A stretch of DNA of 36,456 nucleotides from Mycobacterium sp. (GTDB lineage Bacteria > Actinomycetota > Actinomycetes > Mycobacteriales > Mycobacteriaceae): contig JAOPVX010000211.1 in NCBI GenBank assembly GCA_025965975.1, positions 1 to 36,456 of the forward strand. The letters run 5' to 3'. Below are positions 30,030-34,374 of this stretch, piece after piece. A program made the translations under genes and the position numbers. Under the pieces are notes generated by a model. It did no database searches, had not been told where the DNA came from, and saw only the letters and a program-made list of their open reading frames with translations. Within the stretch, counting starts at the first letter, position 1. Each line of letters begins with the position of its first letter.

Positions 30030-31886
30030 TTAGACGGCCACCTCGCCTTCGGAGATGCGGCGCACCGCCTTGATAAAGAAATCGATCTCTTCAAACGTGT
30101 TGTAGAACGCGAACGATGGCCGCACCGTGGCCTCCAGGCCGAGGCGCCGCAGAATCGGCTGTGCGCAATGGTGTCCCGCGCGCACCGCGATGCCCTCGGC
30201 GTTGAGCGCCTTGCCGACCTCCAGCGGTTCGTGGCCGGCCAGCACGAACGACAGCACGCTGGCCTTCTCCTGCGCGGTGCCGACCAGCCGCACTCCGTCG
30301 ATGTCGGCGAGCAGCGGTGTCGCGTAGTCCAGCAGCGAATGCTCATAGGCCGCGATGCGCTCGATGCCAACACGTTCCACGTATCGCAACGCCTCGCCGA
30401 GGCCCACCGCGTCGGCGATGTTCCCGGTGCCGGCCTCGAACTTGTTCGGCGGGCCCTGATACAGCGACCGCTCCAAGGTCACATCGGCGATCATGTTGCC
30501 GCCACCCTGCCACGGCGGCGTCTCCTCCAGCGCTTCCTCAGTCGCGTACAACACCCCGATGCCCGTCGGCCCGTAGATCTTGTGGCCCGAGAAGACGAAG
30601 AAGTCCGCGCCCAACTCCTGCACGTCTATGGGGAAGTGCGGGACCGACTGGGCGCCGTCGATCAATACCCGGGCGCCGTAGCGGTGGCCCAGTTCAACGA
30701 TCGTCTTGGCCGGGGTGAGCGTGCCCAGAGCGTTCGAAACATGCGTCGCGGCGACGAGTTTCGTCTTCGGGCCGAGCAGGTCCTCGAACTCGCTCAGCAG
30801 CAGGTTGCCTGCATCATCGACGGGAGCGACCCGCAGGATCGCGCCCGTCTGCTGCGAAAGCAGTTGCCACGGCACGATATTGGCGTGGTGCTCCAAGTGG
30901 GTGATGAGGATCTCGTCGCCGGGGCCCAAGTGCTTGCCGCCCCACGCGTAGGCCACCAGGTTGATGGCCTCGGTGGTACCGCGCACGAAGATGATCTCCT
31001 CGCTCTTCGACGCGCCGATAAATCGCCGCACCGTGTCGCGGGCTTCCTCGTAGGCGTCGGTGGCGCGGGACGCGAGCTCGTGTGCCGCGCGGTGGATGTT
31101 GGAGTTCTCGTGTTCGTAGAAGTACGACAACCGGTCGATCACGACCTGCGGCTTTTGTGTGGTGGCAGCGTTGTCGAACCAGATCAGCGGCTTGCCGTTG
31201 ACGGTTTCGGAAAGGATGGGAAAGTCCGTGCGCACCGCATTGACGTCGAACACCTCGTGTTCGTCGGGTAATCGAGGCACCGGCTCGCTAGGCGGTGCGC
31301 CCGTCAGGAAGTAGTAGTTCGCTTCGTCACCGACGGGCGCGGCCCCCGGTGCATCCGACCAGCCGAGGTCGCCGACCGTCGGCGCCTCGGGCAGCCAGCC
31401 CGGCGCCGAGCCGCGCGGGGACACCGGGGCGGCGGGTGCCGACCCAGCCAGCACGCCAGGGATGGTGGGCACGATGCCCGACGACGGCGGCACCGCGTAC
31501 GGATCCAACACGCTTTCGACGGTGTAGGCGGCCGACGGCGCCGCCGTCGTGTCCGGTGCATTGCCCCGTGGCGCGACGGGCACCGCTTGCGGAATACCTT
31601 CCGGCTCAGGAGAAGTCGGCGCCGCCACGTAGCCGTCGGTCGCCGGCACGAGCGGCGCGGATGGCGTGAAGGGGCTGGCGGCACCTGCCGCCGCGGTGCC
31701 GGCGGAAGCAGCCGCAGTCGTATCGGGCACGTTGCCGCGGGGCGCGACGGGCGACCCCAGCGGCGGGCTGTCCGGTCCGGGACGGCTGGTGGCGGCGAAC
31801 AGCTGCGACGCCAACGCCGCGAGTTCGGCTGCGCCGATGGGTAGGTCGCTCTCGGCGTCTACCGACCGGTACTCACTTGTACTCAT
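30030..31886 (-). CDS. Cysteine desulfurase, encapsulin cargo, with long disordered N-terminus
   Basis: 618 residues from the ATG at 31886. The C-terminal ~400 residues are a SufS-type enzyme: F-D-N-A-A-T-T-Q-K-P at 238-247, PLP-binding Lys436 (S-G-H-K-I-Y-G) and catalytic Cys574 (R-A-G-H-H-C-A-Q-P). The first ~205 residues are Pro/Ala-rich and disordered, starting with L-A-A-L-A-S-Q-L-F-A-A at 22-32 and holding three P-V-[AS]-P-R-G-[NS] motifs at 46-52, 103-109 and 154-160. Such N-terminal extensions target the enzyme into family 2A encapsulins in cyanobacteria, and mycobacterial relatives carry the same arrangement. It takes sulfur from cysteine to form a persulfide. Its start overlaps the shell gene by 14 bp. 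Confidence 0.95.
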   Translation of the reverse strand: MSTSEYRSVDAESDLPIGAAELAALASQLFAATSRPGPDSPPLGSPVAPRGNVPDTTAAASAGTAAAGAASPFTPSAPLVPATDGYVAAPTSPEPEGIPQAVPVAPRGNAPDTTAAPSAAYTVESVLDPYAVPPSSGIVPTIPGVLAGSAPAAPVSPRGSAPGWLPEAPTVGDLGWSDAPGAAPVGDEANYYFLTGAPPSEPVPRLPDEHEVFDVNAVRTDFPILSETVNGKPLIWFDNAATTQKPQVVIDRLSYFYEHENSNIHRAAHELASRATDAYEEARDTVRRFIGASKSEEIIFVRGTTEAINLVAYAWGGKHLGPGDEILITHLEHHANIVPWQLLSQQTGAILRVAPVDDAGNLLLSEFEDLLGPKTKLVAATHVSNALGTLTPAKTIVELGHRYGARVLIDGAQSVPHFPIDVQELGADFFVFSGHKIYGPTGIGVLYATEEALEETPPWQGGGNMIADVTLERSLYQGPPNKFEAGTGNIADAVGLGEALRYVERVGIERIAAYEHSLLDYATPLLADIDGVRLVGTAQEKASVLSFVLAGHEPLEVGKALNAEGIAVRAGHHCAQPILRRLGLEATVRPSFAFYNTFEEIDFFIKAVRRISEGEVAV

Positions 31887-32796
31887 GGAACTGATCCACC
31901 GCGACGTCGTCGAGCACTGCAAGCGCGTCGTCGGTGAGCACAGCCAGCGAGGAGTACAGCGTCACCAGATACGACGCGATCGCCGACCGGTCGATCCCGG
32001 TGAACCGCACCGACAGCCCCGGCGCCTGCTCGCCGACCAGGCCAGGCTGGAACAGCCCCACCACGCCCTGGCGCTCCTCGCCGGTGCGCACCAGGAGGAA
32101 TTTCGTCTTACCGTCCTCAACGGGCACCTTGTCCGACGGCACGATCGGGATGCCGCGCCAGGTGATGAACTGGGCGCCGAACAGGCTGACGACGGCCGGC
32201 GGCACGCCGCGGTAGGTGGCCTCCCGGCCGAACGCGGCCACACCCAGCGGATGGGTGAGGAAGAAGCCAGGGGTCTTCCACACCTTGGTGATCAGCGCGT
32301 CGAGGTCGTCGGGGGTGGGCGCGCCCGCCAGCGTCTGAATCGTCTGCTCCGGCGTCACCTGCGACAGCAGGCCGTACTCGGGATTGTTGACGAGCTCGGT
32401 CTCCTGGCGTTCCTTGATGGTTTCGATGGTCAGCCGCAGCTGCTGGGCGATCTGGTCGTGCGGGCTGGAGTACAGGTCGGAGATCCGGGTGTGCACATCG
32501 AGGAGCGTCGAAATCGACCGCAGCGTGTATTCGCGTGGGCTGGTCTCGTAGTCGACGTAGGTCTCGGGCAGCGGCTCCTCGGTGCCGACGCTTTCCTCTG
32601 AGTGGATCGCGACCTGTTCGGGGTTGACCACGCGGTTGACCCGGTAGATGCCTGCCTCGACGGGCACCCAGCTCAGCAGGTGCAACAAGAACCGCGGGGT
32701 GATGGTCGACAGCTGGGGAACGGTCTTGGTGGCATTGGCGAGTTGTCGTGCGGCGAGATCGCCGAGCGCCTGTGACTCGTTCTGGGCTGTCGTCAT
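31873..32796 (-). CDS. srpI: Family 2A encapsulin shell protein (SrpI / major membrane protein I)
   Basis: 307 residues from the ATG at 32796, with GGAGG 7 bases upstream. L-A-N-A-T-K-T-V-P-Q-L-S-T-I-T-P-R-F-L, then L-L-S-W-V-P-V-E-A-G-I-Y-R-V-N-R, the Y-E-T-S-P-R-E-Y-T-L-R-S-I-S segment and Y-G-L-L-S-Q-V are characteristic of SrpI/MMPI, an HK97-fold encapsulin that assembles a protein shell and is abundant in M. avium and M. leprae. It has the extended N-terminal arm and no cyclic-nucleotide domain, which marks family 2A rather than 2B. It is followed, with a 14-bp overlap, by its cysteine desulfurase cargo. The system is linked to sulfur starvation and storage in cyanobacteria. Confidence 0.95.
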   Translation of the reverse strand: MTTAQNESQALGDLAARQLANATKTVPQLSTITPRFLLHLLSWVPVEAGIYRVNRVVNPEQVAIHSEESVGTEEPLPETYVDYETSPREYTLRSISTLLDVHTRISDLYSSPHDQIAQQLRLTIETIKERQETELVNNPEYGLLSQVTPEQTIQTLAGAPTPDDLDALITKVWKTPGFFLTHPLGVAAFGREATYRGVPPAVVSLFGAQFITWRGIPIVPSDKVPVEDGKTKFLLVRTGEERQGVVGLFQPGLVGEQAPGLSVRFTGIDRSAIASYLVTLYSSLAVLTDDALAVLDDVAVDQFHEYK

Positions 32797-32934
32797 GATG
32801 TACCTCCGACTTGGTCTCAATCAGGGCGTCACTCTGTTGGACATCCCCATCATGGGGCAGCGCCGGGCGGCGCGCATCGTTACAACGCAGCGGGATGCAA
32901 ACCCACACGTTGCAGTGTTGTCGGCGCGGTGTCG

Positions 32935-32947
32935 TATGGTATGGGCG
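32935..32947 (+). promoter_or_regulatory. Extended -10 element giving a leaderless transcript
   Basis: TATGGT at 32935-32940 fits the mycobacterial -10 (TANNNT). Seven bases after its last T lies the G of GTG at 32947, where a mycobacterial transcript starting at +1 would have its first codon. This supports a leaderless mRNA. No -35 is needed for such promoters. Confidence 0.65.
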
Positions 32948-33012
32948 TGACACAGCCCACGACGCCGCGCCTTGGTTACGCGCGCTGCCTCGTCGTGCGT
33001 TGTTGTTGTTGA
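32947..33012 (+). CDS. Leaderless poly-cysteine leader peptide
   Basis: 21 codons from the GTG at 32947 to the TGA at 33010-33012. The peptide starts M-T-Q-P-T-T-P-R-L-G and ends V-V-R-C-C-C, with Cys at 14, 19, 20 and 21: three consecutive TGT codons before the stop. Cys is rare in this genome, so the cluster is meaningful. Short leaderless ORFs ending in Cys runs are known in mycobacteria as cysteine-responsive attenuators upstream of sulfur genes. An ATG at 32941 in frame is the alternative start. This one precedes a TQXA-like gene and is divergent from the encapsulin operon. Confidence 0.8.
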   Translation: MTQPTTPRLGYARCLVVRCCC

Positions 33013-33096
33013 TTTTCTGACGCCATCCCCTTGCGTTCAGGCCCGCCCTATCTGGCGGTGTGCCGACACGCGCTGTTCAGAGCCCAGAAAGTCAAC
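33008..33096 (+). promoter_or_regulatory. Cysteine attenuator: helix sequestering the ribosome binding site
   Basis: GTTGATTTTCTG (33008-33019), which covers the last Cys codon, the stop and seven bases beyond, can pair with CAGAAAGTCAAC (33085-33096) through 12 base pairs with one G-U. The second strand contains AGAAAG, the only ribosome binding site candidate for the ATG at 33100. A ribosome stalled on the Cys codons would cover the first strand and free the site; fast readthrough would let it form. A small hairpin CCGCC-CTATCT-GGCGG lies in the loop. Confidence 0.7.
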
Positions 33097-33099
33097 CCC

Positions 33100-34374
33100 A
33101 TGACCGTCCTCTCGTTACCAAGGCCCGCACGCCTGCCTGTCTGCGTGCGTCGGCACGTCCGCGCCCGAGATGTCGACGTTGCGCGGATGACGCGCTACCG
33201 CGGCGGCACCTACTCGCACACGGTCGACAAGATCGTGTTCACTGACGGTTCCTCGGCACGCACGGATCTCATCCGGCTCAACCCGAACATTGAGGCGTAC
33301 TCACTGGACTTCACCGGACACGCCCCGACCAAGCCATCGCGCTACCGCGCGGCGACGTGGTCGGCGGTGCCCAACCTGCGGACCCGCGCCCACGAGGCGG
33401 AAGTCGACTGGATACTGCGCAACTCGTATCCGGCATTGGGGGCGGCAGAATTGAGCCGCCGGTTGCGCGCCGCCGGCTACCCGCTTGGCTCGGCGAACGT
33501 CGCTGACCACGAGGCCATTGCCGCGACCCAGGCCGCGATCTGGCACTTCACCAATGACCTGAACCTGGACAACCGCCCGCGCAACGTCCCGATCGCAGAG
33601 CGCCGCACGTCCAATGGGATTTTCTTCGCGTTCGATGGCGAGCCCGAATTGGGTGGCTACTCAGTCGAACTCGCGTCGCGCACCGCGGTGACACTGATTC
33701 TGCAAAAATCGGTCGACGGCCACACCTGGCGCGACGTGACCGCCTCCGGCCTGAACGTCGAAGCGGGGAGGGGCACGCACCGCAAGGCGCTCGGTGTCGG
33801 CAGTACGGTGTCTCGCAGCCGCCACGGCCGCCGCGGTGCAGGATACCGGTATTACCGCCTCGTCGTCCTGGCCGATTCCGCTGTACTGGTCGGCGCGGTG
33901 CGGTTCTGGCTCGACGGCTCGGCCCCGTACCGCAACACGGAACGCGTCGTGCACGTGTATGACTACCTGCTCGCCGGTGCGAAACGGGCCAGGGAGAACA
34001 CTGTCGCCGCAGAAATCCTCTCCGATGACGCGACGTTCGTCGACGACCTGGTGGGACCGTTTCAGCTGCAAGCGGCCCACAGCGCGTCGCTGACGGCCGT
34101 CGATGCGGCCATCGTCGACGCCGACGGACGGGCGATGACCGGCCCTGTCGAGCCGGGCACCGAGTTCTACGTCCGTCCGCAACCGGGCCGGGCCGGCATG
34201 CTTGTCACCGCGATAGTGCCGGCGACATCGAATGGGTTTGGCGGACAGGTGATTACGGGTGTGGCACACGACGACGCGAACAGCCGACTGACGCCCCTCG
34301 CGCTGGCCATCCCGGCACCGCTCGTGGTCGACTTCGCCATCTACCTAGAAGTACGGCGAACCGTCGCCCGCTGA
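33100..34374 (+). CDS. TQXA (thioester-domain)-like protein lacking the thioester cysteine
   Basis: 424 residues from the ATG at 33100. M-T-R-Y-R-G-G-T-Y-S-H-T-V, then E-A-Y-S-L-D-F-T-G (residues 66-74) and T143-Q144-A-A-I-W-H-F match the thioester domain of Gram-positive surface proteins, where a Tyr-Cys forms a bond with the Gln of TQxA. Here the Cys is Ser68, so the bond cannot form. There is no signal peptide or sortase motif, so the protein is probably cytoplasmic or exported by another route. The second half (residues ~190-424) is a beta-rich region that I do not recognise. Its translation is probably controlled by the poly-Cys attenuator just upstream. Confidence 0.7.
   Translation: MTVLSLPRPARLPVCVRRHVRARDVDVARMTRYRGGTYSHTVDKIVFTDGSSARTDLIRLNPNIEAYSLDFTGHAPTKPSRYRAATWSAVPNLRTRAHEAEVDWILRNSYPALGAAELSRRLRAAGYPLGSANVADHEAIAATQAAIWHFTNDLNLDNRPRNVPIAERRTSNGIFFAFDGEPELGGYSVELASRTAVTLILQKSVDGHTWRDVTASGLNVEAGRGTHRKALGVGSTVSRSRHGRRGAGYRYYRLVVLADSAVLVGAVRFWLDGSAPYRNTERVVHVYDYLLAGAKRARENTVAAEILSDDATFVDDLVGPFQLQAAHSASLTAVDAAIVDADGRAMTGPVEPGTEFYVRPQPGRAGMLVTAIVPATSNGFGGQVITGVAHDDANSRLTPLALAIPAPLVVDFAIYLEVRRTVAR

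Follow-up and report, generated by a model that had tools for sequence, protein, structure and literature searches.

The window, by which we mean the whole 36,456-nucleotide stretch of Mycobacterium sp. DNA that was analysed, carries a gene for a TED/TQXA-family protein preceded by a short leader and, on the other side of that leader, a divergent encapsulin shell gene with the gene for its desulfurase cargo (Table 1). The probable start of the shell gene, judged by eye, is the ATG at 32796. Many genes between 7814 and 29313 resemble organosulfur-scavenging genes; profile matches include a luciferase-like monooxygenase (PF00296) and an acyl-CoA dehydrogenase, and inspection by eye added genes of YeiH-like type and for MetNIQ-like transport, together with more flavin monooxygenases. 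This contig could represent a sulfur-limitation region.

Table 1. Positions of the leader elements, the downstream gene and the divergent encapsulin genes within the window.
Feature	Position	Strand	Evidence
Cysteine desulfurase, encapsulin cargo	30030..31922	-	NF041166, 849 bits (cut-off 800)
Family 2A encapsulin shell gene (SrpI), divergent	31873..32820	-	PF19307, 321 bits; NF041162, 501 bits (cut-off 380)
-10 box TATGGT of predicted leaderless promoter	32935..32940	+	Sequence; TANNNT counterpart in 90/90 loci
Poly-Cys micro-ORF of 21 codons, from GTG to TGA	32947..33012	+	Translation; Cys-rich counterpart in 90/90 loci
Run of three TGT (Cys) codons on which the ribosome would stall	33001..33009	+	Sequence, translation
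5' arm of masking helix; shares bases with the final Cys codon and the stop	33008..33019	+	Sequence, fold, duplex energies
3' arm of masking helix, carrying the ribosome-site candidate	33085..33096	+	Fold, duplex energies, shuffles
Target gene for a 424-aa TED/TQXA-family protein with no visible signal peptide	33100..34374	+	PF08341, TIGR03934, hydrophobicity
Ser68 codon, position of the reactive Cys in classical thioester domains	33301..33303	+	Ser in 89/90 proteins
Gln144 codon, retained Gln of the TQxA motif	33529..33531	+	Gln in 87/90; three unmatched by search pattern
CBM32/discoidin-like domain, about residues 158-279, putative insertion in the TED fold	33571..33936	+	

The leader is compact. 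Six bases separate the -10 box from the GTG of the micro-ORF, which translates to VTQPTTPRLGYARCLVVRCCC and closes with TGT TGT TGT TGA at 33012. The 5' arm of the helix, GTTGATTTTCTG, pairs with the 3' arm, CAGAAAGTCAAC, over 12 pairs, one of them G-U, and the best ribosome-site 6-mer before the ATG at 33100, GAAAGT (33087-33092), lies within the 3' arm. The original prediction had named the -10 box, the GTG micro-ORF, its Cys-Cys-Cys-stop end, the helix and the ATG, and all are present and correct to the base. It had also named RNA folding of 32947-33120 as a check; the predicted fold (-60.5 kcal/mol) contains the 12-bp helix. The fold of this whole leader is moderately unusual (z -2.38; 4/200 shuffles fold equally well), and a duplex as strong as that of the two arms arose in 8 of 20,000 shuffles of the 26 nt preceding the ATG. 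The string TGTTGTTGTTGA occurs three times in the whole assembly; the two copies besides that in the leader lie opposite long coding frames. The window has no Rfam match at the gathering score, and no sigma-70 consensus promoter was found at 32800-33200 by a scan whose reach does not extend to -10-only leaderless promoters.

To follow the leader across the genus, we searched 396 Mycobacterium genomes with the downstream protein and obtained matches in 146, of which 136 are long and ten weak or partial. We examined 90 loci (the window and 89 others) from 89 Mycobacterium genomes, 30 returned by the protein search, including that of the window, and 60 picked by hand. A GTDB scan gave 288 relatives; named species that carry the TED gene within its best 80 are, among others, M. 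peregrinum, M. neoaurum, M. gordonae, M. szulgai, M. lepraemurium and M. lepromatosis. A Cys-rich micro-ORF with three to eight Cys codons lies upstream of the TED gene in all 90 loci, starting in frame with ATG in 86 and with GTG in four. An unbroken run of at least three Cys codons precedes the stop in 72 loci; in the remaining 18 the run is interrupted, as in CCCCRCC. A TANNNT hexamer begins 12 or 13 nt upstream of the micro-ORF start in 90/90 loci, a count that is not independent, because the hexamer was used to pick the start with 11-15 nt allowed; the narrow 12-13 nt spacing, which this choice does not impose, is informative. The conservation of the Cys-rich micro-ORF and the box in 90 loci rules out a chance origin of the leader. 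Two loci (L092, L093) have a longer micro-ORF of 33 codons with an altered N-terminal part, the same Cys-run end and a helix. In another, L091, the Cys run is broken (CCRCI) and the helix is lost, possibly reflecting a decaying attenuator.

We considered TTG 33031 and GTG 33058 as alternative starts of the TED gene and found no support for either, as homology begins at ATG 33100 with conserved residues. This ATG is invariant in a 55-row alignment.

We then asked how well the helix is kept in relatives by pairing, in each of the 90 loci, the 26 nt that precede the TED ATG with 18 nt surrounding the stop of the micro-ORF. The mean duplex energy is -13.9 kcal/mol, compared to -6.4 kcal/mol when the 3' arms are shuffled (-7.0 in the best of 200 rounds) and -5.8 kcal/mol with a window 30 nt further upstream. 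Control windows inside the TED gene (1,710 in total) average -7.0 kcal/mol, and 1.1% of them reach -13.9. The duplex is at -10 kcal/mol or stronger in 88/90 loci; in L091 the pairing is lost and in L087 it is weak. In an in-silico stall test, we barred the bases beneath a ribosome stalled on the Cys codons from pairing. With this mask, the probability that the ribosome site is unpaired rises on average from 0.14 to 0.43 over the 90 loci, whereas 30-base control masks, placed at the 5' end or in the middle of the spacer, leave it at 0.14. Accessibility gains greater than 0.3 were obtained in 39/90 loci with the stall mask and in 0/90 with either control mask. Conservation, helix position and the stall test together support well the attenuator reading with which the analysis began, and the leader probably works by such a mechanism.

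Covariation in the helix is modest. We divided the loci into those without cysK (class W, 55 loci) and those with it (class K, 35 loci). With the arms in register, 86% of cells pair in class W, compared to 34-66% with the arms slid, and 93% pair in class K, compared to 24-57%. Changes on both sides of a pair occur at three pairs in class W, where slid controls give up to four, and at no pair in class K. The two classes differ by a U-A pair swapped for C-G (UUUUCUG/CAGAAAG versus UUUCCUG/CAGGAAG). When arms were exchanged between classes, the own arms paired better in 38/41 and 32/33 distinct cases in the strict direction, and only in 27/41 and 27/33 in the tolerant direction. Within class W, own arms outdo those of other members in 33/41; within class K they are no better than those of others (15/33). 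Given that slid controls equal the helix on the count of two-sided pairs, we dropped covariation as proof of it. The original prediction had looked to relatives for pairing with compensating changes, and the outcome is mixed: the pairing is kept in 88/90 loci, with one loss and one weak case, and the compensatory changes are few.

The protein encoded downstream matches PF08341 at 44.3 bits (cut-off 22) and TIGR03934 at 58.3 bits (cut-off 30.4), both above curated cut-offs, in agreement with its earlier description as TQXA-like. At the position of the reactive Cys it differs from classical members: the residue is Ser in 89/90 TED proteins (the remaining one was unmatched by the search pattern) and Cys in all six classical TED segments aligned. 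The Cys-Gln thioester pair of functional thioester adhesins is thus absent, with Ser standing for Cys. A hydrophobicity scan shows no export signal: across 90 proteins, no 19-residue Kyte-Doolittle mean within the first 60 residues exceeds 1.14. Searching solved structures by sequence yielded two matches only, at E 0.1. Foldseek ranked 6fwy first with low TM-scores (0.32/0.42), and a second look with VIA-align gives stronger evidence than Foldseek; the fold matches considered are those of the TED and CBM32/discoidin types. Among 298 genomes of the order outside Mycobacterium we found no full-length TED protein; matches beyond the genus are at the level of the domain only (best E 4e-14).

Cysteine is scarce in this protein, with a mean content of 0.22% over 90 proteins, 45 of which have no Cys at all. 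The 19 other genes of the window average 0.41% and eight of them lack Cys. Since other genes in the window are also Cys-poor, we rejected Cys avoidance as proof that the TED protein is adapted to starvation; its low Cys content is only suggestive of such an adaptation.

The TED gene travels with the encapsulin. A SrpI match lies divergent to the TED gene in 88/90 fetched stretches; of the other two, one has SrpI just outside the stretch (L026, genome G205) and one lies near a contig end (L051). Across the 396 Mycobacterium genomes, SrpI matches occur in 134 (133 above cut-off), all of which have TED, and no genome has SrpI without TED. Conversely, 134 of the 136 genomes with long TED matches have SrpI. 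The exceptions are G183, where TED sits at a contig edge, and G240 (L054), where SrpI was found only as a 36-residue remnant and the leader and TED gene are intact, a natural case of TED without encapsulin. Because the two genes are linked, part of this co-occurrence reflects shared inheritance. One genome (G098) carries a second SrpI copy (C1:1375660-1376361) without a second TED match. Our literature search, in the texts it reached, found no reported contact between a TED protein and an encapsulin.

We propose that transcription would begin at or beside the GTG at 32947, such that a ribosome loads on the extreme 5' end of the RNA and reads the micro-ORF. When charged Cys-tRNA is plentiful, the ribosome would reach the stop and depart, leaving the 5' arm free to pair with the 3' arm and to hide the TED ribosome site. 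When cysteine is short, the ribosome would stall on the TGT codons and cover the 5' arm; the helix would then not form and the TED protein would be made. Our best explanation of the whole, to which we assign a probability of about 0.8, is that the leader is a cysteine-responsive translational attenuator and that the TED protein most likely assists the desulfurase encapsulin next to it, as an accessory in the cytoplasm that acts when cysteine is scarce. What that accessory does is a guess: it might return shell-held sulfur to CysK, or it might restrain the desulfurase. A fuller version of this proposal, which we put forward tentatively and consider rather doubtful as a whole, makes the TED protein, as a Cys-poor cytoplasmic protein with a thioester fold, an overlooked third component of the mycobacterial encapsulin: the change of the reactive Cys to Ser would permit its synthesis in starvation, the Cys leader would switch it on, and it would dock on the shell to feed stored sulfur back into cysteine synthesis or to stop the desulfurase from consuming cysteine.

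The leader could instead act mainly on transcription, with fast translation of the micro-ORF exposing the RNA to Rho, a stalled ribosome preventing termination, and the helix secondary. Rho was proposed for the leaders of mycobacterial cys operons by Seliverstov 2005 (PMC1262725), whose accessible text calls the prediction weak, and our scan of 32800-33200 found no intrinsic terminator, so that termination would need to be of the Rho type. Under this model, however, the complementarity to the ribosome site, held at the strength given above in all but two loci, would be superfluous, and we consider the model unlikely. The micro-peptide might also have a function of its own, for example in sensing metals or thiol/redox state, instead of gauging cysteine supply. 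The N-terminal part of the peptide is indeed conserved within clades, but what different clades have in common is limited to the Cys-rich end and its placement over the helix, and these suffice to explain the layout; we give this idea almost no credence.

The neighbouring genes bear on another possibility, that the leader truly serves cysK and that TED is a passenger in between. A cysK gene (TIGR01139) lies directly 3' of TED in 35/90 loci, the distance ranging from -14 to +68 bases; in 19 of these the two genes overlap by the four bases ATGA. Moreover, among seven TED-lacking loci with a close cysK and a located start (four further loci, whose start was not located, are left out of this count), five carry the same type of leader directly before cysK; six loci with a more distant cysK, about 64% identical, have no such leader. 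Against a passenger role, 55/90 loci, including the window, retain both leader and TED and have no cysK in the 1.2 kb or more fetched downstream, and the 93%-complete assembly of the window contains no close CysK at E <= 1e-80. For the window this alternative is already unlikely, and overall we regard it as highly improbable. Those 55 loci thus make TED a client of the leader in its own right. Given that the leader is found before cysK, before TED-cysK or before TED, it therefore serves each of these in different species.

The leader is thus real and conserved across the examined Mycobacterium carriers, and it is, judged by its anatomy, a cysteine-responsive translational attenuator. The type of attenuator is already known and its client is partly known; the new part would be the nature of the client and its tie to the desulfurase encapsulin. 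For a protein of obscure role, ML0840 in M. leprae, control by cysteine is now predicted, and this protein is tied to a sulfur-handling encapsulin, the shell of which is the 35-kDa mycobacterial antigen. The encapsulin field gains a candidate partner and an expected condition, cysteine shortage, and the field of mycobacterial small ORFs gains a conserved case in 90 loci with a masking helix that can be read across the genus.

The closest mechanistic relatives are the poly-Cys leaderless ORFs of M. smegmatis, for which Canestrari is said to have shown cysteine-dependent attenuation in 2020. Like the window leader, these are said to have a helix that masks the ribosome site. Both have a micro-ORF with contiguous Cys codons, leaderless in M. 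smegmatis and predicted to be so here, and the dependence of ribosome speed on cysteine in that system, as citing papers report it, is here proposed from the sequence. The window differs in its client, a TED protein beside a desulfurase encapsulin. Attenuation had been proposed earlier, as speculation in the accessible text, for the leaders of cysA2, nirA and Rv0485 (Shell 2015).

The locus itself has a partial precedent. According to the accessible text of Seliverstov 2005 (PMC1262725), leader peptides with Cys runs precede mycobacterial cys operons, in which MAP2122 and ML0840 are extra genes; this M. avium/M. leprae locus is orthologous to ours and, with its leader and TED gene in a cys operon, corresponds to class K. 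That text describes no conserved hairpin and no homologues beyond two, whereas we find the masking helix across 90 loci and add the TED identity, the encapsulin linkage and the loci without cysK. The claim in the original prediction that the protein was new to sulfur therefore stands only in part: the two orthologues had already been placed in cys operons with such leaders, and an uORF before a TQXA gene was on record for M. abscessus. Within the texts our literature search reached, ML0840 was met only as an antigen or a hypothetical gene. The accessible part of PMC3040138 lists it with 434 aa and a homologue MAV_2053, and with none in its M. tuberculosis, BCG, M. marinum and M. ulcerans columns.

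A further parallel comes from M. abscessus. In the accessible text of PMC4974804 (2016), an uORF before the TQXA gene MAB_0219 is among the ribosome-protected uORFs, which are described as similar to uORFs predicted for M. smegmatis and M. tuberculosis. Like the window leader, this uORF precedes a gene for a TQXA-domain protein, and from its name and likely genome position we infer that MAB_0219 is the orthologue of the window TED gene. The word "cysteine" has no occurrence in the main text of that paper; the link to cysteine is made here. An RNA-seq table for M. abscessus sigH (PMC13340314, 2026), in the part accessible, gives MAB_0219 a log2 value of -4.07 for wild type versus complemented strain, and genes for sulfonate transport and alkanesulfonate monooxygenase follow the same course. 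Because the knockout-versus-wild-type cell for MAB_0219 contains a misprint and, for the sulfur genes, the three columns do not add up in sign, only this co-movement is usable; it may reflect sulfur limitation.

In the encapsulin survey PMC8346489, the accessory genes encountered most often are those for serine acetyltransferase and rhodanese, and thioester is not mentioned in its accessible text. No paper that our literature search reached joins leader, TED and encapsulin, although the Pfam-sorted neighbourhood tables of PMC8049743 might list PF08341. Compared to the classical thioester-domain proteins (PDB 6fwv, 5a0g, 6fwy, 2xid), the TED protein of the window differs in that Cys is replaced by Ser, in that it has no visible signal peptide, and in that it combines a CBM32/discoidin-like insert with a sulfur-gene context.
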